A stretch of 58,196 bases of DNA from Ignavibacteria bacterium (GTDB lineage Bacteria > Bacteroidota > Ignavibacteria > Ignavibacteriales > Ignavibacteriaceae). Every line of letters starts with the position of its first letter. Within the stretch, counting starts at the first letter, position 1. The translations under genes were made by a program, and so were the position numbers. Where the stretch lies: the NCBI GenBank assembly GCA_030684555.1, contig JAUXVN010000130.1, forward strand, positions 1 through 58,196, in the 5' to 3' direction. The notes under the pieces are model-generated. The model ran no database searches and was not told the origin of the DNA. It was given only the letters and a program-made list of their open reading frames with translations. This document shows, one piece after another, positions 9,591 through 34,555 of this stretch.

Positions 9591-12500
9591 TCAACTCTGA
9601 TTTTTAGGAAGAGTTATAATAAATTCGGCGAACTCACCAATTACTGTGTCAACTTTAACTTCACCTTTGTGTTGTTGCACTACAATATCATAACTTAATG
9701 AAAGTCCTAAACCCGTTCCTGCTCCTGTAGGTTTTGTTGTGAAGAAGGGATTAAAAATTTTGTCAACTACATGTTTGGGTATACCTTCACCATTGTCTCT
9801 AATTCGAATTTCAATATACGAATCATAGTTTTTAGTTTTTACACTCAAAACAGGTGAATAAGCATCACGCAATTTTTTCTTTTTTTCATGGGTAGAATAA
9901 CAAGAATTGTTCACCATGTTTAGAAACACACGTGAAATATCCTGCGGTACAACTTTAATTTGTTCGAGTGATAAATCATAATCAGTTTCAATTTTTATAT
10001 TGAATGTTGAATCTTGAGCGCGCATTCCATGAAATCCGAGATTTACATATTCTGCAAGAAGTGCGTTAATATCAGTTAACTGTTTTTCTCCTGATTTGCC
10101 TCTGGAATGCAATAACATACCTCTGATTATACTGTCAGCACGCTTTCCGTGTTCATTGATTTTCAAATTATTATGTTTAAGGTCTCCGAGAATTTCCATT
10201 AGATAATCTTTTGTTTTAGAATCAATTGACTCATGGAGTCTTTCTATTTCAACTTCAATTTCTGATACTAAATCTTTGCTTAACTCGGCAAAATTATTTA
10301 CAAAGTTTAACGGGTTTTTAATTTCGTGAGCAATTCCGGCAGTTAATTGTCCAAGGGAAGCAAGTTTTTCAGCTTGAACTAACTGTGTTTGTGCGTTCTT
10401 TAAATTGTTCAAGGTAACTTGTAAATCTTCAAGTATCTTAGTTTTAATAAATGCGGAAATAATATGTTCTTTAATATTTTTCAGAAAGGAGATGTCTTTA
10501 ATTTTAAAAGCATCATTTCTGTGAGTGTTTTCAAGGATTAAAAATCCTTCAACTTTCTTTTCAACTTTAACTAAAAGCACAAGGAGAGATTTAGGTGATT
10601 CAATCTGATCAAACTTATTATTTACTGTTCGGGCTCGATAGTTTGAGGTGAAGAATAAATCCTCATACACTTCTTCAGTATATTTCAAATATTTCTCTTC
10701 GGCTTCAGTTTGTGTAAAACTATTTTCTTTAATACTCTCATAATTCCAACCGAAACTTGCTTTAAACTTATATGCGTTTGAGTTTTTGTCAAATACGAGT
10801 GCTGATGCCTTATCGATTCCTTTAACAACAGTAATTTTTTCAAGTATTGAATTTAGTAGATTGGAAAAATGTATTTCAGAATTAATCGATTTTACTATCA
10901 CATTAATTTTTTCCAGCTCATCATTTTTATCAGCCAGTTCAAGCGACTTTTCTTCAATCTCCTCCTTTTGTTTGATGATTTCAGAAGTCCTTTGTTCAAC
11001 AAGTTTTTGAAGAGCCTCTTTTTCTTTTTCTAACTGTCGTGAACGAAATCGTATTAGTCCAATAACAAATGTTCCTGCACAAATAAGATAGAAAATATAT
11101 GCCCAAATTGTTTTAAACCAGGGTGTCATAACTGTGAAGTAGTATTGTGTGATATTGCTTTCATGACCATAAATATTTTTAGCTTTTACGGAGAAAATAT
11201 AATCTCCTTCAGGAAGATTAGTAAATTCTTTTTGAGTTGACTTTGTCCAGATTGACCATGTTTCATCGAATCCTTCCAGATAGACACTGTACAAATTATT
11301 TCCGCGGGTTTTGAAACTTCCGGAACCATAGTCAAACCGAATTGTGTTTGTGTTATAAGGCAAATTTACACTACCGGTTGACTCCAATATTTTTATTCCA
11401 CCGCCATAAATAATGTTATCATCATTAACCGTAACTCTTCTGATTAGAGCTTGGAAATCATTTTTGTAGTTGTAATCCAGCTTATCATCAAAACGAATAA
11501 TTCCTTCCGGACCACCAAACCAGGTAATGCCATTTCCCTCCGACAAACAAGACCAAATTACAACATCACTTATCGGAAGAAAGGGGGTTTTTATTTGAGT
11601 GTAAATATTATTCTGATTTTTTGCTAAACTGATTGATGTTCCGTCACCATCGGCTAACCACAAATCACCGGTGGATTTATTTTCATACATTAGTGAGAAC
11701 CATAAATTAACTGAACTATCCTTAAATATCGGATTGGGTTTGAATGTTTTTGTTTGTTTATCATATTTCATTAATCCGCTTTCGGACGATATATACAAAT
11801 CGGAGGAGAAAGCGTAAATACGATTCCCCAAATTTGAAGGAAGTCCATTAGAAATATCATATCTGATAAAAGAGTTATCGGATAGATTATACCGAATTAT
11901 TCCTTTTGAAGAAGTTTCGAGAAAAACTATTCCTTCTTCAAATTCGATGGCTTTATTTATTTCTTCATTAATTCCTTTTAAATTTCCTTTATTAATCCAT
12001 TTCCCATTTATCAACTCAAATTCAATTACACCTTTTAATGTAGAAGCAAATATCCTATTGCTATCAATTAAAGATTTGTAAAGGGACAAATTAAACTCTG
12101 AATAGATTTTATTGATACCCTTTTCCGTAATCTCAAATATTCCGGAGGTTGTTGCTGCAAGCAGAGAGTTTTCACCCAAAACTAATGACCAGCAAGCGTT
12201 ATCAAAACCTTTTAACTGATGGAAATATTTCGCGGAATTATCAAAAACAAATAACCCTTGATAGGTTGCAACGTATAACTTATTATTGAATCTATTGAAA
12301 GCAGTAACTCCGCCTTTAATACCGGATCTTTCATCAAAGAATGTGAAGGGTGAAGAAATTTCAATAATAGATATTCCATTGTTTAATGCAGCCCAAATAT
12401 TATTTTCTTTATCAAAATAGATTGATTTTACAAGTTCATTTTGCAGTCCGGAATTTTCATTTATTATTTGTCGTAATGAAAAATCTTTATTTAGAATTAC

Positions 12501-13340
12501 AATTCCACCTCGAGCTGTTCCAATTGCCAAAGCTTCATTATCAGTTTCTTGCACACAAGAGATTCTATTCTTGATGAAGAAATCATCCATTTCGGTTTGA
12601 AGCGGTATTATCTGTCCGTCTTTAAGTTGATAAAGCCCTTGATTTGTAGTTGCATAAAGAGTAATACTGTTTTGCAGTTTAATTAATGACGCGAATTCCA
12701 ACGAAGGCAATAAGTTTTCAGATCCTGAAAGCTTAGTTAATTTTCCATCAATGAATGATTTTAAGCCGGCATCTTTTACATTACAGATTAATATATCATC
12801 AAGTAAAAACGCTGTAACTAAAGGCTGCTTTATATGCCACGAAGTTAATTTGTTGTTAGTATAATTAAATATCCTATTCTCAGAAATAAAATAAATACCG
12901 TTAGAATAAGGGATAATTTTAATTATGTCACTAAATTCAGTTTCGCTTTTTGAAAGGTTTATACTTAAACTTTTGAATATTGGCAATGATAAAGAATCAG
13001 TATCAACAAATCCAAATTCCCCCCGCGCACCCACATAAATTCTACCCGATTTATCTTTAGCTAATGAGGTAACCTTTGAATTATATTGAGTTGAAATAAT
13101 ACGCCATTCTATTCCATCATATTCAAGTAATCCCGAAAAATTTGCAACATAAATGATACCTCTATCGTCCTGAACAATATCAAAATTCTGTCCGTGGGCT
13201 TTGTATTCTTTTGGGTTATAATTCTTTAGGAATGTAAAACCAATTTCCGAATTATTTATTTGGGCTGACGAAACGAAAACTAATAAAATCAGTTGAACAA
13301 TTATCATATGAAACTTAAAGAAAAGATTAGACTGCTTCAT
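9591..13340 (-). CDS. Periplasmic-propeller sensor histidine kinase (two-component)
   Basis: About 1,249 residues from ATG 13340, chosen because AAAGGA precedes it and a signal peptide follows directly (MKQSNLFFKFHMIIVQLILL...SSAQ); an upstream ATG at 13370 would add ten basic residues. Order: two regulator-propeller blades (about 30-680), Y_Y_Y domain (about 680-740), one membrane span (about 750-770), coiled coil, GAF-like domain (about 845-985), HisKA with H1005 in GIAHEIKNPLNF, and HATPase with N box (NMVNNSCYS), DNGEGIP and GTGLGLS. The propeller should sit in the periplasm and the kinase in the cytoplasm. The start overlaps the MFS gene's end by 14 nt, and the REC-PP2C gene follows, so they are probably one unit. 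The ligand is unknown. Confidence 0.9.
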   Translation of the reverse strand: MKQSNLFFKFHMIIVQLILLVFVSSAQINNSEIGFTFLKNYNPKEYKAHGQNFDIVQDDRGIIYVANFSGLLEYDGIEWRIISTQYNSKVTSLAKDKSGRIYVGARGEFGFVDTDSLSLPIFKSLSINLSKSETEFSDIIKIIPYSNGIYFISENRIFNYTNNKLTSWHIKQPLVTAFLLDDILICNVKDAGLKSFIDGKLTKLSGSENLLPSLEFASLIKLQNSITLYATTNQGLYQLKDGQIIPLQTEMDDFFIKNRISCVQETDNEALAIGTARGGIVILNKDFSLRQIINENSGLQNELVKSIYFDKENNIWAALNNGISIIEISSPFTFFDERSGIKGGVTAFNRFNNKLYVATYQGLFVFDNSAKYFHQLKGFDNACWSLVLGENSLLAATTSGIFEITEKGINKIYSEFNLSLYKSLIDSNRIFASTLKGVIEFELINGKWINKGNLKGINEEINKAIEFEEGIVFLETSSKGIIRYNLSDNSFIRYDISNGLPSNLGNRIYAFSSDLYISSESGLMKYDKQTKTFKPNPIFKDSSVNLWFSLMYENKSTGDLWLADGDGTSISLAKNQNNIYTQIKTPFLPISDVVIWSCLSEGNGITWFGGPEGIIRFDDKLDYNYKNDFQALIRRVTVNDDNIIYGGGIKILESTGSVNLPYNTNTIRFDYGSGSFKTRGNNLYSVYLEGFDETWSIWTKSTQKEFTNLPEGDYIFSVKAKNIYGHESNITQYYFTVMTPWFKTIWAYIFYLICAGTFVIGLIRFRSRQLEKEKEALQKLVEQRTSEIIKQKEEIEEKSLELADKNDELEKINVIVKSINSEIHFSNLLNSILEKITVVKGIDKASALVFDKNSNAYKFKASFGWNYESIKENSFTQTEAEEKYLKYTEEVYEDLFFTSNYRARTVNNKFDQIESPKSLLVLLVKVEKKVEGFLILENTHRNDAFKIKDISFLKNIKEHIISAFIKTKILEDLQVTLNNLKNAQTQLVQAEKLASLGQLTAGIAHEIKNPLNFVNNFAELSKDLVSEIEVEIERLHESIDSKTKDYLMEILGDLKHNNLKINEHGKRADSIIRGMLLHSRGKSGEKQLTDINALLAEYVNLGFHGMRAQDSTFNIKIETDYDLSLEQIKVVPQDISRVFLNMVNNSCYSTHEKKKKLRDAYSPVLSVKTKNYDSYIEIRIRDNGEGIPKHVVDKIFNPFFTTKPTGAGTGLGLSLSYDIVVQQHKGEVKVDTVIGEFAEFIITLPKNQS

Positions 13341-16300
13341 GTTTTGTCCTTTTAATTTTATTTTTCTCATACAAAGAAGAAATAAGTCCGTCGGCTAAAT
13401 TGATATCATCATCAAGATACGAGTAGAGAATGTCCAATCTAAATTGAAGTAGAAGACAATCTGTTGCGGCGGTAAATTCGTTTTCTTCCTTTAAATAACC
13501 TGCATAATTAAATTCACCAATTATTGAATTTTGCGGGAACAAAATCACCTCTCCTGAAGATGTTGTACATTTGATCTCTCCATTTACAACAAGGAAATAG
13601 TAGTACATATAATTTTCGAAATGAGGAATTGCTTCCCCTTTTAACTTAGGAATTTCTAAAGAGCCGGAGACAAAATCTACAAGCTTTATCTCATCAACAT
13701 TCCTAAATATTGGAAGGGATTTCAACAACTTTACTTCATCCGTAGACAGCAGCAAATTATTTGTTTGAATGCTCAAGAGGTTCTTCTGTATATGTGCCGG
13801 GAATTGTTCAAATAATTCTCTGTAGAGTAATTGATCTATTGCCATCAGTGTTCTCGCTGCGTTTTCATAAATCATGAAATCGGGATTAATCAAATTTGCC
13901 GATATGGTTTTAAGTGTAGCTTTGTTGTTATAAAAAACCGTTAATTCGATTGCGCAAACTTTTGTCCAACGATTAATTAATGAAAAATCTTTGTTGATAA
14001 TATCAATTAACCGATCCGGCAAAGAGAGTTTTTGCTGCGGATATAAATGATCAAAAAGTGAAATGCCTTCTTCATAGGTAACATCTTCAAGAAGTGGAAT
14101 TAACATTTCCTTTATTTCCGGCAGCACAATCAAATCTAAAATTTCCAATGCATAAACCTTTTTTTCATTATCTCCCGATTCAATATTTTCTCGAATATGT
14201 TGAATGGTTTTGTAATCATATAGAAGCGATAGGAAGTGAAAAATACGTTCTCTTTTATTCCTTAGTTCTGACTCTAGTGAACTTATCAAGTGAACTGCTT
14301 TATCCGATTTTCTACAATCAATGATTGTTGCCATCAACCAGACTGTCATTTCTATTTCAGATTCAATAGTCTGAGATATAAATGAAAACTCAGAGTGGTT
14401 TGCATGATAATTTAATTTGCCTAAAGCAATCAAAACCCGGTCTCGAATATCTTTGTCGGGGTCAAGCATCTTAGAGTGTAAAATATCAATTGCAGTTTTA
14501 GTCCCAACTTTTTCAAATACTTTTAACAATCGCAATTTAGTAGATTTGTCCGTGGTCATCCGAACGAAAGCAGTATTCAAATCTCTTAATATCGGTTCAC
14601 CAATTATTTTCATTACTGAAATTGCAGAGTTGGCATAAGCCGGAACTGCTGCAAGAGCGATAATATTATTCCAAAGTTCAACACGTTTTATTTTTCCGGT
14701 GGCAATAATGGCGGTAGTTCTCACACGATGGTCGTTATCATTTAAGAAAACCTGAAGCAACTTAATAGCATCATATCTACCTGAGTAACCCAATAACCTT
14801 GAAGCCAGGATCCTATCTTCCACGAAATCTGAACCGCTTAGTTTTTCAATCTTATCGAAATCAAATTGTTCTTTAGATTTTAACACTTTTTCAACAACTT
14901 TTAATTTTTCAAAAAGAGGGCTGTTTTCATTTCGTGTCAGCAGTAATTCTATCTCGTCAATGGAAGTAATTATAACCCGCTCTTCAACTATTCTAAGGAT
15001 AATCTCTTTCTGTTTTAAATTTCCTTTTAACAGTAATTCAGGAAGGAATTCCTCAAGTTCAATCGGATCAATTTTATCAAACAATCGAACTAAATCGATT
15101 AGTTTATCACCATCTTCTTTTTCAATATAATCCTTTAATATTTTTAGAGATTCTTCCATTCTGTTTTTTGAAGAATCTTTTCTCTGTTGTTCCAAAATTG
15201 ATTTTAGAGTTGAACGGTATTCGTGATACATTTTAAATGCAATTCGAATCCAGAAAAATAAAACTATCAGGAAAATGAAATTATAATGGACTATATTTAA
15301 AAAAGTTAAACTTGTAAAAAGTAATAATGTTAATCCGCCAAGCGTATTGCCGATTGCTTTAGGAATGCCCTCCATCTTACTTTGGAATGTAAATCTTTCT
15401 TCAGCCGGAAGCGGTTGATACAAGATTTGAAATGCCGGATCTCCTAACGAACTTCGCAATACTCTTTCAGATAATTTCATCAGAGCTATAAATGCAAAAA
15501 ACAGTGCAGATGCTCCATATATAGCTCCCGAAAAGCCTGCCAACAAAGCACAAAGGGTGAGCATTAACGGAAGTATAGATAAACCAAGTTTAATTCCATA
15601 TTTACTTATTAATCGACCCGATAAAAATGTCTTAATAATGAATTCTGCAATAGCTGTAATCCCAAAGAAAATACCAAGGAATGATGCAAGAACATTACGA
15701 TCAGGGTATTCAATTTTTGTTTGATCCAAGAAAAGATAATCAACAAAATAAATAGAGAACATTGGAAGGAGTGCGAGTAAAAATAGATATGAAAAATATT
15801 TTGTCTTCAATAATTGAAATAATCCGGATTGACTGCTCATAGTAACAGTCGATTCTGAATTAGTATCTGAAGATGTCAGCTCGCTGCTAAATACTTTGGT
15901 GATATAAGTAAGAATTCCAATACAAAATACCAGCGCAATAAATGCAATAAAAATTAAGTCGGAAGCTGAAATGAATTGCAACAAAAGCGGGATTGAGAAA
16001 AACCCTATTATATCGGATATTACTTCACCGGAACTAATTAATCCAAATAATCGCTTACCCTGCCTAAGATTAAAAAGTCTTCCTGCTAAAATCCAAAAAA
16101 CTATCGCCCCGATAAATGTGAATGCTCTAATCCATATGTACATTAAAAACGAGAGCCATCTGAAAGGGAAAAAATATTCACTTAAACTAAATAGTAGTAC
16201 ACTAAATGTTAATAGTACAAGGTAAGTTATCAGGAGACTTGGAACAGAAAGTTTTTTTTCGAGTTTAGAAGAAATTACCCAGATTAAATATCCTGCAGCC

Positions 16301-29195: not shown

Positions 29196-29582
29196 TTATT
29201 TTTTTGAAGAATGATTTCTATACTTAACCATTCCACCAAGAACATTTTTTGCGTTAAATCCTTTTGACCGCAAAAAGTCAGTTCCGAATGTAGAGCGGTT
29301 ACCTGTTCTGCATATTACTGCAATGTCTTTATCTTTATATTTTGATAGTTCTGAAAATCGTGTTGAAATTTCTTGAACCGGAATATTTATAACTCCATCA
29401 ATTTTACCGAGTGGACCGGCTAACTCACCTGGTGTTCTAACATCAACGATTACCAATGATTTATTCGTCTTCATTTCCTCTATTAAAGTTGAAATGGACA
29501 TTTCAGATTCGGTATTTACTTGTGCTTTTGAAAAGATATTGAATATTGAAAACATAATTATTAACAGTAATCCTTTGCTCAT
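29196..29582 (-). CDS. Exported single-domain rhodanese
   Basis: 128 residues. A signal peptide (MSKGLLLIIMFSIFNIFSKAQ) precedes one rhodanese domain with VIVDVRTPGELAGPLGKIDGVINIPV and the active-site loop CRTGNRS, so Cys should carry persulfide in the periplasm. It is the last gene of a minus-strand run downstream of the ECF sigma factor and FmdB genes (21 nt after FmdB). Family is firm; physiological sulfur donor unknown. Confidence 0.85.
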   Translation of the reverse strand: MSKGLLLIIMFSIFNIFSKAQVNTESEMSISTLIEEMKTNKSLVIVDVRTPGELAGPLGKIDGVINIPVQEISTRFSELSKYKDKDIAVICRTGNRSTFGTDFLRSKGFNAKNVLGGMVKYRNHSSKK

Positions 29583-29603
29583 AGATTTCTTTCTATTTGA
29601 TAT

Positions 29604-29852
29604 TTAATTTAGACCGCACATCCCGGATGAACATGGAGATTGAGAATTAACAGAACAATTTCCACTACTGCATGTATCATCATAAGAGTAAGAAATAGTG
29701 GCAGGAATTTTTGCGCTAAATGATGAAATTAACTTTTTTATATTTTTTGTATTGCATTTTGGGCACGTAGCATCTTCACTATTTTGTGTGGTTTTATGAA
29801 GTATTTCAAATTTTGAATTACAATCCAAACAGCGGTATTCAAATATCGGCAT
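29604..29852 (-). CDS. FmdB-family zinc-ribbon protein with Cys-rich tail
   Basis: 82 residues. MPIFEYRCLDCNSKFEILH and ATCPKCNTKNIKKLIS form the FmdB zinc ribbon (two CxxC pairs). After residue 58 there is an added Cys/Ser/Gly-rich tail (CSSGNCSVN, PCSSGMCGLN) with four Cys. FmdB proteins are small putative regulators; molecular role unresolved. It lies 21 nt after the anti-sigma gene and 21 nt before the rhodanese gene. Confidence 0.85.
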   Translation of the reverse strand: MPIFEYRCLDCNSKFEILHKTTQNSEDATCPKCNTKNIKKLISSFSAKIPATISYSYDDTCSSGNCSVNSQSPCSSGMCGLN

Positions 29853-29873
29853 ATTTTATTCTCCTAAAATTAA

Positions 29874-30113
29874 TTATTCGTTTTCAAGATTTAATATTTT
29901 CATCAATCTGTTATGAGCGTCATCCGGCAAATCAACATTATACAATTTATAAAAATCGATTGTGTGTTCAACAGAATGAAAATAATTTTGACAAACACTA
30001 CAACTCTCTAAATGAGATTTGATGGCTCTACACTTCGGCGACTCCAAATCTTCTCCTAAACTTTCGCAGACATGTTCCATCACATCTCTACAAGTTACTT
30101 TTTCCTTTTTCAT
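29874..30113 (-). CDS. Zinc-finger anti-sigma factor-like protein (zf-HC2)
   Basis: 79 residues. Two conserved elements, CRDVMEHVCESLGEDLES and CRAIKSHLESCSVCQNYF, give the zf-HC2/ZAS pattern H-x3-C-x2-C (HLESCSVC). No membrane segment, so a soluble anti-sigma factor. Its start overlaps the sigma-factor stop by 4 nt (ATGA), the usual arrangement of an ECF sigma with its cognate anti-sigma. A redox or metal signal through the Cys cluster is likely but inferred. Confidence 0.8.
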   Translation of the reverse strand: MKKEKVTCRDVMEHVCESLGEDLESPKCRAIKSHLESCSVCQNYFHSVEHTIDFYKLYNVDLPDDAHNRLMKILNLENE

Positions 30114-30670
30114 ACTTGAAATGCTTTCGAAATTTCTTTTCTTAAAAATGCTCTTGCTCTGTGTAACCTTGATTTTACTGCCGGGATACTTAACTTGGTA
30201 AGTCCAGCTGTCTCTTCAGTTGATAATTGTTCTACATCTCTCAAAGTAAAAACGATTCGATATTCGGGTACAAGTTTACTTATCGCATCATCAAGTATTC
30301 TACGAAGTTCTGTATTCTCCAGATTTTTAAGCGGTAACGAATTCCAATCTGCGATATATTTTTCATCAAATAAACTATCGTCAGTTTCTACATCAACATA
30401 TAAATAACGCTTATTTTTTCGCGCTTCCATCAAACAGTTATTCACCACAATTCGATACAGCCATGTAGATAGTTTTGATTTACTATCGAATTGATGAAAT
30501 GATTTTATCATGCTCAAGAAGGTTTCCTGCATAGTATTTTCAGCCTTCTCGCGGTCTCTACAAATCTTATATGAAAAATTGTAAACAGTTTTTTCATATT
30601 TTTTTACTAAAAAAGCTAAAGCCTTGCGGTCACCGTCTTTTGCATTTGATATTAAAATTTCTTCATCCAT
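30110..30670 (-). CDS. ECF-type RNA polymerase sigma factor
   Basis: 186 residues. Region 2 (VKKYEKTVYNFSYKICRDREKAENTMQETFLSMIKSFHQFDSKSKLSTWLYRI, ending VVNNCLMEARKNKR) and region 4 (LVPEYRIVFTLRDVEQLSTEETAGLTKLSIPAVKSRLHRARAFLRKEI) are both present, the compact layout of ECF sigma-70 proteins. It directly precedes and overlaps the zf-HC2 anti-sigma gene. A possible self-controlled ECF promoter lies just upstream (30678-30702), unusually close to the start codon. Confidence 0.9.
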   Translation of the reverse strand: MDEEILISNAKDGDRKALAFLVKKYEKTVYNFSYKICRDREKAENTMQETFLSMIKSFHQFDSKSKLSTWLYRIVVNNCLMEARKNKRYLYVDVETDDSLFDEKYIADWNSLPLKNLENTELRRILDDAISKLVPEYRIVFTLRDVEQLSTEETAGLTKLSIPAVKSRLHRARAFLRKEISKAFQV

Positions 30671-30677
30671 TTGGTTT

Positions 30678-30702
30678 GATGTATCTTGTTTTAAAAAGTT
30701 TC
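30678..30702 (-). promoter_or_regulatory. Possible autoregulated ECF promoter
   Basis: On the minus strand GAAAC (30702-30698, in TGTTGAAACTTTTT) is followed after 16 nt by CATC (30681-30678), like ECF -35 (AAC) and -10 (CGTC-type) elements at the expected spacing. The -10 lies only 7 nt before the sigma start codon, implying a nearly leaderless mRNA if real. Confidence 0.35.
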
Positions 30703-30756
30703 AACATTTTTTTATAATATGAAAGATAATAAATCACTTCTATCTTAAAGAAGCAT

Positions 30757-31386
30757 TTATTTAGGGATAGCAATTTTTTCATCGAGACTTTTCCATAAAT
30801 ACCACGCAGCAATTGAATTATAAGGTCCCCATTTATTTTTCTTTGAAATTTTTTCTACTTTAATTTCAGAAGGTAATTCTTTAAGTGAATATATTGTCTT
30901 AATAGCTTTTTTTATCCCCAGATCTCCGGTTGGCAGAACGTTTAATCTTGCCAAAGTAAAAATAAGGAACATTTGGGCAGTCCAAACACCAATGCCTTTA
31001 ACTTTGGTTAGAAGTTCGATTATTTCTTCATCAGTCTTGGTTGTAATACCTTTAAATGTAATCTCCATACTTTCAATTTTTGCAGATAAATCCTTTATAT
31101 ATTTAATTTTCGAGTAAGATATGCCCAATTTCCTCAATTCTTCAGTGTCAGTATCCAAAATTAATTTTGGTAGAAATTTTCCGGAAAAATAATTCTGAAA
31201 TCTCTCAACGATTTTATTTGCAGCATGTATGGATAATTGCTGACCAATAATTGAAGTTACTAAACTTTCAAAATATTTTTTTGATGGAGTTATTGAATAT
31301 TGAGACGAATTTTCAATTATATATCGCATTTTATAATCATTATTTTTTAAGTGCCTGATACCGTTTAATATTTCCAAATTATTCAC
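30757..31386 (-). CDS. DNA-3-methyladenine glycosylase (AlkA/HhH-GPD family)
   Basis: 209 residues from a GTG start (31386). SLVTSIIGQQLSIHAANKIVERF opens the helix-hairpin-helix GPD fold; the hairpin is LLTKVKGIGVWTAQMFLIFTLARLNVLPTGDLGIKKA, where the Asp of PTGD is the catalytic residue of AlkA-type base-excision glycosylases. It would remove alkylated purines. It stands divergent from the following kinase-like gene and 87 nt upstream of the sigma-factor start on the same strand, so it may or may not share its transcript. Confidence 0.85.
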   Translation of the reverse strand: MNNLEILNGIRHLKNNDYKMRYIIENSSQYSITPSKKYFESLVTSIIGQQLSIHAANKIVERFQNYFSGKFLPKLILDTDTEELRKLGISYSKIKYIKDLSAKIESMEITFKGITTKTDEEIIELLTKVKGIGVWTAQMFLIFTLARLNVLPTGDLGIKKAIKTIYSLKELPSEIKVEKISKKNKWGPYNSIAAWYLWKSLDEKIAIPK

Positions 31387-31424: not shown

Positions 31425-33644
31425 ATGATATCTCAAATAAAAGCCCTTACCTTGATAAAATCAAACAAATTGTTTGCACATATCGAAAACCAATATCCGC
31501 AATTTAATTTTAATCAGAAAAGCTTGAAAGAAATTTCTGAAGGGGAAATAATTTTTCAACCGGAAGATTCAGCGGAGCAAATTTATTTAATTCTCGAAGG
31601 TAAAGTTAAAATAAAACACAGAACTTATATTGATGGGCAGCGAATATTTATTAAACAAGACGGCGATTTCTTTGGGGAGAAAGAGTTTATCGAACATCAG
31701 AAACGAGACTCCTCATCAGTTGCAGAAACAAACTGTACTCTTTATCTATTATATCATGATGATATTGATTCATTAACTTCTCAAGATAAACGGGTATTAA
31801 ATAATCTTCAAGGGATAGAGTATTTTGAAGTGAAGCCTTCGGTAATTGAAGAAAAACCACCATTAGAATTAACTGAGGATAACAGTGATAGCCAATCACC
31901 AAATATAGAAGATGAGATAACCCCAACCTCAACTTTCTCAGAAGAATCATCTGAATTTACTTACAAAGATATATCGGAAGATATTGTTGACTCATTTGAT
32001 TTTAATGCTTTTAAGGAAACCGATTCTTCCCTGTCCGAGAAGATTAAAAATTCTATTGAAGAAGGATCTCCAACTGTTAGCGAGGAAGCTGATACCTTTG
32101 AATGGGATTTTGGAGAAGCTGATGAAATTCCTCTAATAGATGATGAAGAAGCTGAATTGACGCCCCCTGCATGGGATGATGATGAAAATAAAATTAATTG
32201 GGGAATAAAGGATGAACCTCAAGAAGAAAAGATATTTGATTCAAAAACAGATTGGAATTTTAATTCAGAACCATCTGAGGATGTATTAATCAATGATGAG
32301 AAAATAGATATAATTGAAGATGCCTCACCTTTTAATAGTTTTGAACCTAAAGATGAACCGGGTGGCTACTCTATTGAGACGAGTAATTCCGAATATGAAC
32401 ATGTAGAGGATGAACCAATAAAAGAGACTTCCTTGAAAGCGGAAGATTTTTTTACTGTCAATAAACATAATTTTTCACCGGAACAATTGAGATTAATTAT
32501 TGAAGCAGCAGAAAAAGTAAATTCAAATATTAAACTTGATGAGGTTCTTAAATCAATTATTTCAGCCGCTTCATTGTTGACTGAAGCTGACAGAGGAACC
32601 CTTTATATCCTCGACAGGGAAACAAATGAATTGTGGTCAAAAGTAGTTCGCGGAGATAATATTCAAGAAATAAGATTACGAATTGGTCAGGGTTTAGCTG
32701 GATGGGTTGCGCAAACAGGTGAAGTAGTGAATATACAAGATGCTACTGTTGATGATAGATTTGATTCCGATATCGACAAAAGTTCAGGTTATAAAACAAA
32801 CTCTATGCTCTGTTATCCGATTAAAAATAAAAATGGGGTTGTTATAGGTGTGCTTCAATTGCTGAACAGCCATAAAGGTTTCTTTGTCCCAATTGATGAA
32901 GCTTTTCTTGAAGCCCTTTCTGTACATGCCGCCTTAGCACTTGAAAATGCCGAACTTGTACAGCAAATATTACGAACTGATCGATTAACATCAATTGGGA
33001 AAGTGGCAAATTTTATTATTACTGATATTAAAAAACCGATCTTAACAATTAAACATTATGCCGAGCACATCAAAAAGAAAGACATAACACAAGACGTTAA
33101 GCAAGTACTCGATATGATTATTGAACAAGCAAATACTGTATCAGATTTAGTTCAAACAACTCTGAGTTATTCAGAAGGTAAATCGATCCTTCAAACAAAA
33201 AAACAGAGCATTAATGCGACGTTGGAATATATTCTTGAGTTATTAGCTGAGTATGTGGATTCTAAAAAAGTTAAATTATTCAAGAAGTTTGATAAGGATG
33301 CAATTGTTCAAATTGATAAAAAAGAATTTTATCAAGCATGTTTTCAAATTGCTAAAAATGCTTGTGAGTCTATGGGAACCGGTGGAAATTTATATATATC
33401 TACAACACTTGGCGAAGCTTCCGTATCTATTTCTTTTAAAGATTCCGGTCTCGGAATCCCGGATAGTCTGATCGATAAAATTTGGGAACCCTTTATGAGT
33501 CATGGAAAGAAAAATGGAGTTGGACTTGGATTACCAATTGCAGAGAAAATTATAAAAGAACATGGTGGAACAATTGCAGTTGAAACCGATTTGGGTACCG
33601 GTACTACTTTTACAATCAAACTCCCGATAGTTAATAATGAATAA
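31425..33644 (+). CDS. cNMP-GAF sensor with histidine-kinase-like module lacking phosphoacceptor His
   Basis: 739 residues, no membrane segment. Order: cyclic-nucleotide-binding-like domain (about 25-125; EGEIIFQPEDSAEQIYLILEG), a long acidic disordered linker (about 135-345) with repeated Trp/Phe-Asp/Asn motifs (FEWDFGEADE, PAWDDDE, DWNFNSEP), GAF domain (about 370-510; GQGLAGWVAQTGEVVNI), then a DHp-like helix and HATPase (about 620-735; DSGLGIP, GVGLGLPIAEKI). The helix reads LTSIGKVANFIITDIKKPILT; compared with the propeller kinase's [21 protein letters not shown], the His is replaced by Thr 533. ATP binding looks intact. Its stop overlaps the miaA start by 1 nt. Confidence 0.85.
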   Translation: MISQIKALTLIKSNKLFAHIENQYPQFNFNQKSLKEISEGEIIFQPEDSAEQIYLILEGKVKIKHRTYIDGQRIFIKQDGDFFGEKEFIEHQKRDSSSVAETNCTLYLLYHDDIDSLTSQDKRVLNNLQGIEYFEVKPSVIEEKPPLELTEDNSDSQSPNIEDEITPTSTFSEESSEFTYKDISEDIVDSFDFNAFKETDSSLSEKIKNSIEEGSPTVSEEADTFEWDFGEADEIPLIDDEEAELTPPAWDDDENKINWGIKDEPQEEKIFDSKTDWNFNSEPSEDVLINDEKIDIIEDASPFNSFEPKDEPGGYSIETSNSEYEHVEDEPIKETSLKAEDFFTVNKHNFSPEQLRLIIEAAEKVNSNIKLDEVLKSIISAASLLTEADRGTLYILDRETNELWSKVVRGDNIQEIRLRIGQGLAGWVAQTGEVVNIQDATVDDRFDSDIDKSSGYKTNSMLCYPIKNKNGVVIGVLQLLNSHKGFFVPIDEAFLEALSVHAALALENAELVQQILRTDRLTSIGKVANFIITDIKKPILTIKHYAEHIKKKDITQDVKQVLDMIIEQANTVSDLVQTTLSYSEGKSILQTKKQSINATLEYILELLAEYVDSKKVKLFKKFDKDAIVQIDKKEFYQACFQIAKNACESMGTGGNLYISTTLGEASVSISFKDSGLGIPDSLIDKIWEPFMSHGKKNGVGLGLPIAEKIIKEHGGTIAVETDLGTGTTFTIKLPIVNNE

Positions 33645-34555
33645 TGTCCCATAATTTAATTTCGATTCTCGGTCCTACAGCTTGCGGGAAAACAAGTTTA
33701 GCTGCTAAACTCGCACTTCATTATAATGGTGAAATAATCTCTGCTGATTCAAGACAAGTCTACCGTTACATGGACATCGGTACAGGAAAGGATATTAGCG
33801 AGTATAATATAAACGGAATGCAGATCGCTTACCACCTAATAGATATTATAGATACTGATAAAGAGTATAATATCTACAGATTTCAAGAAGATTTTTTTGC
33901 TGTTTATAAGCAAGTAATATCAAAAAATAAAATACCATTTCTTACCGGAGGATCAGGTTTATATTTGGCGGTAATAATTCAAAACTACCTTCTGAACAAA
34001 GCAGATTTTTATGCAAATGAAATTGATAAAAAAAAAGACGAAGAATTACGTGAATTACTTCTTCAATTAAAACCTAATCAACATAACCAAACAGATTTAG
34101 TTAACCGTAATCGATTAGTCGCAGCCGTAAAAGTTGCGTTTAGTGAAAACAATTCACAAGTAGATTTAACAAAACAAAAAAAGATAAATTCGCTTAACAT
34201 TGGAATTGCTCCTGATCGTGAACTTATTAAAAGAAGAATTACAGAACGATTGAAAAAACGATTGAATGAAGGGATGATTGAAGAAGTCGAGAAATTACTT
34301 TTGCGCGGAATATCCCATGACAGACTTCAGTTATTCGGGCTTGAGTATAAGTATATTTCACTCTACTTAAAAAGTGAAATTAACTATAACGACATGTTTC
34401 AAAAATTAAATAGCTCAATCCATAAATTCGCAAAACGGCAAATGACATGGTTTAGAAAAATGGAGAAAGAGGGAGTTCAAATTCAATGGCTTGAGTCGCC
34501 GAATTATGAGTCGGCAAAAAGAATAATCGATTCTGCAAGAATTAATTTAGTCTGA
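33644..34555 (+). CDS. miaA: tRNA dimethylallyltransferase MiaA
   Basis: 303 residues. The P-loop GPTACGKTSLAAKLA, then ISADSRQVYRYMDIGTGKD and FLTGGSGLYLAVIIQ, are hallmarks of IPPT/MiaA, which adds a dimethylallyl group to N6 of A37 in tRNAs reading UNN codons. RQMTWFRKME near the C-terminus is the expected conserved end. The linker MDIGTGKDISEYNINGMQIAYH and the modest length suggest a variant or second paralogue in this group. The start ATG overlaps the stop of the kinase-like gene (TAATG). Confidence 0.85.
   Translation: MSHNLISILGPTACGKTSLAAKLALHYNGEIISADSRQVYRYMDIGTGKDISEYNINGMQIAYHLIDIIDTDKEYNIYRFQEDFFAVYKQVISKNKIPFLTGGSGLYLAVIIQNYLLNKADFYANEIDKKKDEELRELLLQLKPNQHNQTDLVNRNRLVAAVKVAFSENNSQVDLTKQKKINSLNIGIAPDRELIKRRITERLKKRLNEGMIEEVEKLLLRGISHDRLQLFGLEYKYISLYLKSEINYNDMFQKLNSSIHKFAKRQMTWFRKMEKEGVQIQWLESPNYESAKRIIDSARINLV

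Follow-up and report, generated by a model that had tools for sequence, protein, structure and literature searches.

The locus and the encoded protein

The window analysed here, i.e., the whole stretch of 58,196 nucleotides, corresponds to positions 1 to 58,196 of contig JAUXVN010000130.1 (forward strand) in assembly GCA_030684555.1 of an Ignavibacteria bacterium (GTDB order Ignavibacteriales). An open reading frame at 31425..33644 on the plus strand, where all coordinates below lie unless stated otherwise, encodes a protein of 739 aa in which Pfam and composition delimit a cNMP-binding domain, an acidic linker, a GAF domain, a DHp region without the phosphoacceptor histidine and a HATPase_c (CA) domain, the layout of a putative pseudo-histidine kinase. 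The same domain order had been described in the first-pass annotation, which was made from the letters alone, as had the absence of a membrane part; the highest mean hydropathy over 19 residues was only 1.34, therefore no membrane helix is suggested.

The cNMP-binding domain (residues 35–120, 31527..31784) scored above the Pfam cut-off and keeps Glu85 and Arg94 of its phosphate cassette, the Ser after the Arg being replaced by Asp95. It is followed by the acidic linker, defined by composition (residues 133–345, 31821..32459), in which D and E make up 31% of the residues, the net charge is −52, and the motifs WDF, WDD, and WNF occur at 227, 250, and 277, respectively. The GAF domain (residues 371–506, 32535..32942; above cut-off) retains N481, F487, D491, and E492 of an NKFDE-like motif, with Ser482 in place of the Lys. 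The DHp region (about residues 519–590, 32979..33194) was recognised from a HisKA match below the cut-off (534–584, 19.0 bits vs. 26.9; 41.4 bits in L110, a kinase from a sister order) and from two long helices in the structural model. The HATPase_c domain (residues 631–735, 33315..33629; 70.6 bits, above cut-off) has N645, D673, G675, G677, G700, and G702 intact in the alignment, and its G1 box, F690, and G2 box are kept. The ATP motifs had been called intact in the first-pass annotation, which is correct for DSGLGIP (from 673) and GVGLGLPIAEK (from 698) but passes over the first N-box Asn of the sister kinases, replaced here by Gln641 (codon 33345..33347).

The position of the phosphoacceptor is taken by Thr533 (codon 33021..33023), which lies inside LTSIGKVANFIITDIKKPILT (beginning at 521) and falls on the phosphoacceptor His of ZraS in a phmmer alignment. 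The propeller-kinase peptide with which this helix had originally been compared is real and belongs to another ORF of the window (9591-13370, minus strand; residue 1003). Two further positions of the helix recur below, namely Lys537 (33033..33035) at the phosphatase N/T position (H+4) and His548 (33066..33068) at H+15. Among the best 25 of 80 matched NCBIfam models, no named kinase reached its curated cut-off (top match AtoS, 139.4 bits vs. 646), and the closest named sequence was that of an Ignavibacteriaceae MAG contig (L031, 65% identical). Immediately downstream lies miaA (IPP transferase, 33644..34555), the start of which overlaps the stop of the pseudokinase gene by one base. On the other side, at 29196-31386 (minus strand), the window holds rhodanese, ECF sigma factor, and HhH-GPD (AlkA-type) genes, which recur beside the pseudokinase gene.

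Distribution and gene neighbourhood

Matches were found in all 59 genomes of the set of relatives. Synteny was read at the best-match loci of 50 of these genomes and on one named contig (L032), 51 loci in total, where the usual downstream order is miaA followed by a glycosyltransferase; an ECF sigma gene is located upstream on the opposite strand in 41 of the 51, often with an AlkA-type gene in between. For the other nine genomes the region upstream of miaA was inspected: five hold the gene or a remnant, three (G005, G040, and G042) have the neighbours joined directly with the gene absent, and the one miaA seen in G016, which is counted in neither group, is a distant one. Hence 55 of the 59 relatives hold the gene or a remnant of it, and these, together with 11 further genomes of the order and L032, provided the 67 rows used below (two of these, L061 and L074, run into contig ends, and a third, L063, is split). 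The stretches fetched for 64 of the 67 rows include a downstream miaA in the same orientation, no more than 100 bases away in 62 of the 64; L042 and L044 have no miaA nearby and L061 stops at the contig end. The idea that the gene works together with miaA or the sigma factor was rejected: synteny is its sole basis, and the neighbours stay joined where the gene is missing (L177–L179).

Another candidate partner was considered in the genome of the window (G000:C152), where L217:1108-2292 (+) encodes a protein with a pseudo-receiver, a GAF domain, and C-terminal helices. All 13 of its 13 rows have Glu where the phospho-Asp belongs, and its C-terminus resembles, by reading, a decayed form of the DHp that the GAF kinases in L242/L246 have. 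It occurs in 17 of the 59 relatives vs. 55 of 59 for the pseudokinase gene or its remnants, i.e., the two are not co-distributed, and it was therefore rejected as an obligate partner.

Sister kinases and phylogeny

The order alignment was used for a class-wide search (103 of 245 genomes at E ≤ 1e-60, order members included) and a phylum-wide one (42 of 296 genomes at 1e-50). The sister set comprises 62 loci in 60 genomes from other orders of the class, with proteins of 530–625 aa in 60 of the 62 and a recognisable cNMP cassette pattern in 54. One of them, L110 (545 aa), agrees with the window protein in its four Pfam domains and their order, and 16 sister rows are 35–42% identical to the latter over GAF-DHp-CA. 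The sister kinases have the His, the phosphatase Asn or Ser and the N-box Asn, and usually the cNMP Ser and the GAF Lys as well; no miaA-like ORF was found in their 62 stretches of 2.7–4.5 kb. Their linker has a median of 22 aa (50 of 62 rows) vs. 210 in the window's order (60 of 67 rows), lengths that were obtained with a regular expression for the domain end and include some 0 values that are artefacts. The sequence comparison shows that the nearest relatives are cNMP-GAF-HisKA-HATPase kinases with His in sister orders, and that a short linker became a long acidic one.

The linker reaches 1133 residues in L042. Across the orthologues it contains 36 W-[DN] motifs vs. 9.9 ± 3.2 in shuffled sequences and 101 [FW]x[FW] motifs vs. 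50 ± 6.3, with enrichment absent or weak for the other patterns tried. These may be repeated short binding motifs.

Searching the genome of the window with L110 retrieved the window gene as best match (316.7 bits; the next, at 144, was a GAF-only match), and the two are reciprocal best matches; paralogue confusion, with the true orthologue being a His-bearing gene at another place in the genome, was on this ground rejected for G000, the window's genome. Nine further loci (L239–L247), kept out of the 62, all have the His, including L239 from another class. Three of them (L240, L241, and L243), the GAF paralogues that were read within the order (kinase-like ORFs in L038 and L062 were left out), encode a separate His-bearing GAF kinase of 410 aa with the motif HEIRTP; genomes of genus g37 carry this second, His-bearing kinase with a similar GAF. 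Related GAFs were also noticed, by reading, in GAF-SpoIIE-like proteins (L231–L234 and L236–L238), one of which (L238) has a cNMP-like N-terminus.

A quick tree of 86 rows (66 from the order and 20 of the 62 sisters) was computed after removal of the trait columns. A single branch with an SH-aLRT of 100% divides the order from the sisters, and the window falls into a clade of 43 rows (SH-aLRT 91, drawn open), hereafter the window's clade. The tree is unrooted and gave long-branch warnings; only this clade and the deep split were used.

Loss of the phosphoacceptor histidine

In the alignment, His at 533 occurs in 0 of the 66 readable rows of the order (67 gene copies minus one without a letter at this site) vs. 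62 of the 62 sister rows. The order has instead Q (30 rows), S (14), N (5), K (5), D (3), E (3), G (2), R (2), T (1), and A (1). These counts include the most divergent rows (L072, L075, L176, L181–L184, and similar ones), for which the alignment at 533 is not secure. Within the window's clade, 29 rows have Q and 10 have S, with K, T, N, and E in a single row each. The surroundings of the site are largely kept, with an acid at 534 (D in 51 and E in 10 of the 67 rows), the H-box Pro in 56 of 67, and, within the window's clade, D at 534 in 41 of 43 and K536 in 43 of 43 rows, while 62 of 62 sister-order relatives read H-D-[ILM]-K-[NS]-P. Given a published share of HisKA domains without His of 0.9% (722 of 76,471, as reported in the excerpt of PMC12632262), 0 of 66 against 62 of 62 is not a matter of chance. 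A sequencing error or a single-gene oddity was rejected as well, since other genomes have other non-His residues in the same context. Among the remaining kinases of the window's genome, the H-box His was seen in 28 of the best 30 HATPase loci (no DHp was recognised in the other two); these were drawn from 82 HATPase matches, the other 52 including the window gene itself, and the pattern demanded His, so that it could confirm, and not find, substitutions.

The replacement of the His by Thr noted in the first-pass annotation is accordingly borne out, and at the level of sequence the loss of the His is confirmed as real and family-wide across the sampled members of the order. The annotation had named, as evidence that would count against it, homologues with His and a Thr unique to this sequence: Thr is indeed unique to the window protein, but the His is found in the sister orders and not in the homologues of the order. 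Since Thr is confined to 1 of the 66 rows, Thr533 does not qualify as a conserved replacement for the phosphoacceptor and was rejected in this role. The presence of the His in the sisters, the outer relatives, and the other kinases of the genome makes a loss on the stem of the order the simplest polarity, and we infer that it was lost once, on that stem.

Other replaced and retained positions

The motif residues discussed here are the phosphatase position 537, the N-box position 641, the GAF Lys, and the cNMP Ser. We scanned 387 columns, from the GAF domain to the end, for a residue shared by no less than 97% of the 62 sisters and retained by no more than 10% of 43 core rows. This gave seven positions (477, 533, 570, 578, 581, 637, and 641), two of which are catalytic by position, the phosphoacceptor 533 and the first N-box Asn 641. 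The core rows were chosen for having His548 and all six ATP-box residues, the conservation of which is there by construction; the window's clade avoids this circularity. Position 641 is Asn in 62 of 62 sisters and His (25), Gln (15), or Asn (3) in the window's clade; Glu occurs in 3 of the 67 order rows, and the window has Gln. Position 537 is Asn (56 of 62) or Ser (6 of 62) in the sisters. In the window's clade, 40 of 43 rows have Lys there, and the 24 order rows outside it vary (Thr 5, Ser 4, Ile 4, and others). The sensor domains changed too: where 59 of 62 sisters have the Lys of the GAF NKFDE motif, 46 of 67 order rows have Ser, and in the cNMP cassette the Arg is followed by Ser in 4 of 36 measured order rows vs. 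54 of 54 measured sisters. The latter count covers 36 of the 67 order rows and 54 of the 62 sister rows and used a pattern that required Ala or Ser at 96, therefore only position 95 is informative. Of the 67 order rows, 56 have N645, D673, G675, G677, G700, and G702 all intact; within the window's clade 42 of 43 do, and the one that does not is truncated.

Another His in the helix, which the first-pass annotation had mentioned as a possible site of phosphorylation, does exist: in the window's clade 42 of 43 rows have His548 (and as many have Glu547), as do 45 of the 66 order rows with a letter there, vs. 0 of 62 sisters. Its offset from 533 is +15, the same as that of T275 from His260 in HK853, where His260 is the reference histidine (title of PDB 6rh8) and T275 is among the residues mutated to rewire the response-regulator interface (title of PDB 4jas). 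From this register, His548 would sit at the response-regulator docking position and not where ATP is expected to reach.

An AlphaFold2 model of residues 345–739 (44-row alignment; mean pLDDT 89.3, pTM 0.67) has an ordinary GAF domain, two long DHp helices, and a CA domain. The two-helix form of a DHp dimerisation domain is thus present in the model, with dimerisation itself predicted. Foldseek matched it with ZraS (E 7.8e-18), HK853, and DivL (E 9.5e-15), at TM-scores by query length that are low (0.39–0.47), probably because the domains are jointed differently. The nearest solved relatives of the GAF domain are those of a cyanobacterial adenylate cyclase (1ykd, E 1.5e-64) and of PDEs.

Selection and later fate of the gene

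Selection was estimated in ten core pairs, many of which have dS > 1, so the dN/dS ratios are rough. In the His-less DHp the ratio was 0.01–0.07 (eight core pairs with finite dS), and the pairs with finite dS gave 0.02–0.09 for CA, 0.02–0.06 for GAF, 0.03–0.09 for cNMP, and 0.18–0.33 for the linker. The closest pair of the window (L033/L034) had finite values only in CA (0.07) and the linker (0.19); because its dS is saturated in DHp, the result rests on the other core pairs. For the window's clade, these sequence-based estimates show strong purifying selection on the putative dimerisation helices. Pairs from side branches were looser (L068/L070, DHp 0.20; L077/L079, CA 0.20).

The ATP boxes are degenerate in L072, L076–L079, L176, L183, and L184, with single changes in L067 and L071. 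The Pfam GAF is missing in L181, L183, and L184, and L176 has no GAF by reading. Shrunken genes encode 369 aa in L181, which keeps HATPase_c (58.4 bits) and a sub-threshold cNMP, and 361 aa in L183, where, as in L184, cNMP is the only Pfam match. The gene has gone from between its neighbours in L177, L178, and L179. Lineages with lost ATP-box residues, remnants, or no gene indicate that the protein is dispensable there.

Function and alternative explanations

We consider it fairly probable, from the pattern of kept and replaced residues, that the protein is a pseudo-histidine kinase, a nucleotide-binding, non-phosphorylating sensor or scaffold working like DivL. It would bind ATP or ADP, as its motifs suggest for ATP, without autophosphorylation or phosphate transfer, and would probably signal by binding and shape change instead of passing phosphate. 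Gln at 641 in the window's branch and Lys at 537 make canonical kinase and phosphatase chemistry unlikely, and for this reason most weight is given to a nucleotide-binding, docking-only protein; the regulatory ATP-binding protein named as the second option in the first-pass annotation fits the data. The cNMP and GAF domains, together with the nucleotide occupancy of CA, may set the conformation of the DHp dimer. As output, another protein, most likely a receiver of the response-regulator type, would dock on DHp helix 1, where Lys537, Leu540, Glu547, and His548 would form a re-specified face, and the acidic linker possibly helps docking. A wider version, to which we give some but rather little credence, has an order-wide allosteric hub in which all modules were re-tuned together (the cNMP cassette Ser, the GAF Lys, the phosphoacceptor, the phosphatase and the N-box positions), again without phosphotransfer; cyclic nucleotides or other ligands and ATP/ADP would be its inputs, and a multivalent acidic linker with repeated W-[DN] and the new DHp docking face its outputs.

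GHKL-type Ser/Thr kinases are known, PDK and SpoIIAB being examples, and the Ser-kinases of this kind (PDK, BCKDK, and SpoIIAB type) have a general-base Glu in the N box. The first-pass proposal of a Ser/Thr kinase is weakened: for the family, autophosphorylation at this site is not supported, Thr being present in 1 of 66 orthologues, and the related idea that the HATPase phosphorylates Ser or Thr elsewhere in the protein or in a partner is unlikely. Although the nucleotide boxes are intact in 56 of 67 rows and 641 is His in part of the family, where it could act as a base, there is no conserved Ser/Thr at 533, and the window protein, like its close kin, has Gln at 641 instead of the general-base Glu (3 of 67). 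Likewise, an ECF sigma-factor gene is located two genes from the window gene, but on the opposite strand, and it remains where the pseudokinase gene is absent. A precedent is CSK, the chloroplast sensor kinase of plants, a His-less protein with a GAF sensor that is reported to autophosphorylate on Ser188 and has a sigma factor as proposed target (excerpt of PMC6949291), from which it follows that loss of the His does not prove lost kinase activity.

A gene whose function was lost on the stem and which has been decaying piecemeal since then would explain the remnants (L181, L183), the copies without GAF (L184, L176), the missing genes (L177, L178, and L179), and the ATP boxes that are degenerate (L072, L076–L079, L176, L183, and L184) or singly changed (L067, L071). 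It is improbable for the family at large in view of the dN/dS of 0.01–0.09 in DHp and CA of the core pairs where dS is finite and of new residues that are near-fixed in the window's clade (Lys537 in 40, Glu547 in 42, and His548 in 42 of 43 rows); the weaker constraint in the side-branch pairs (0.20) means that decay may be real there. The phosphatase motif of HisKA is E/D-x-x-T/N, and the acid at 534 is kept (D 51 and E 10 of 67), as expected of a histidine kinase that only dephosphorylates a response regulator, an activity for which the His is described as not essential (excerpt of PMC12632262). Since Lys stands in for the catalytic Asn/Thr in the window's clade (40 of 43 rows), though 9 of the 24 others have Thr or Ser, we regard this reading as very improbable. 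Least probable of all, and barely credible, is that His548 became the new phosphoacceptor, 15 residues further on in the same helix: its occurrence in the window's clade (42 of 43 rows), in the order (45 of 66), and in 0 of 62 sisters speaks for it, but it lies four helical turns off the catalytic register, it is missing from most of the more divergent rows, and its HK853 equivalent T275 belongs to the response-regulator interface mutants (title of PDB 4jas).

If the protein is the docking-only pseudokinase preferred here, the family offers a natural series in which to study what a histidine kinase does when it is unable to transfer phosphate. The His type survives in the sister orders, and the loss fits a single stem. 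Strong selection still acts on DHp and CA in many of the descendants, and the side branches have dropped ATP-box residues, the GAF domain, or the entire gene, depending on the branch. To our knowledge, few natural His-less HisKA cases have a traced origin, and this one would be a clean set in which to test the importance of the individual replacements.

Comparison with known systems

Pseudo-histidine kinases are a recognised kind, defined in the excerpt of PMC12632262 as kinase homologues that, by sequence, are without at least one kinase function, and the window protein belongs there on the basis of its lost His, phosphatase Asn, and N-box Asn. Such proteins are also described there as part of a two-component network; the single candidate partner examined for the window protein, encoded in L217, was negative. 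It falls outside the HisKA histidine kinases, which have a phosphoacceptor His in the H box, where it has Thr533. The kind is already known and the family is new; nothing on it was found in the literature searched (titles and the starts of abstracts, among the matches listed).

DivL of Caulobacter (excerpt of PMC4211667; PDB 4q20) has, like the window protein, a His-less DHp with the other histidine kinase boxes kept and the fold of a histidine kinase, and matched the window model with Foldseek E 9.5e-15 (TM-score 0.39 by query, 0.67 by target). According to the same excerpt, DivL has neither kinase nor phosphatase activity, retains ATP motifs yet binds nucleotide weakly, and binds DivK~P via R553, T557, and Y562, i.e., +3, +7, and +12 from Tyr550 on helix 1; the window protein has Lys536, Leu540, and Tyr545 at these offsets. 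The site itself is a fixed Tyr in the alphaproteobacterial homologues that it covers (Ala in one), in contrast to the variable site of the window family, and DivL has PAS sensors, with no cNMP domain or acidic linker in that description. With Thr, Gln, or Ser at the site and cNMP and GAF domains instead of Tyr and multiple PAS domains, the window family lies outside the DivL family.

CSK (excerpts of PMC5054060 and PMC6949291) shares with the window protein a GAF sensor and a His-bearing ancestry, its core coming from the His-bearing Hik2, and also the variable site, the His having become Tyr or Gln in green algae and Glu in higher plants. It lost the His in step with the loss of its response regulator. 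CSK differs in being a chloroplast protein with an iron-sulfur cluster and reported Ser autophosphorylation, and these excerpts mention no cNMP domain. In Corynebacterium glutamicum, a pseudokinase variant of ChrS (excerpt of PMC9491836) is inactive and matters through another kinase, heterodimers being involved; that variant is a laboratory-evolved frameshift in CA, whereas the window protein lost the acceptor side and keeps its CA domain.
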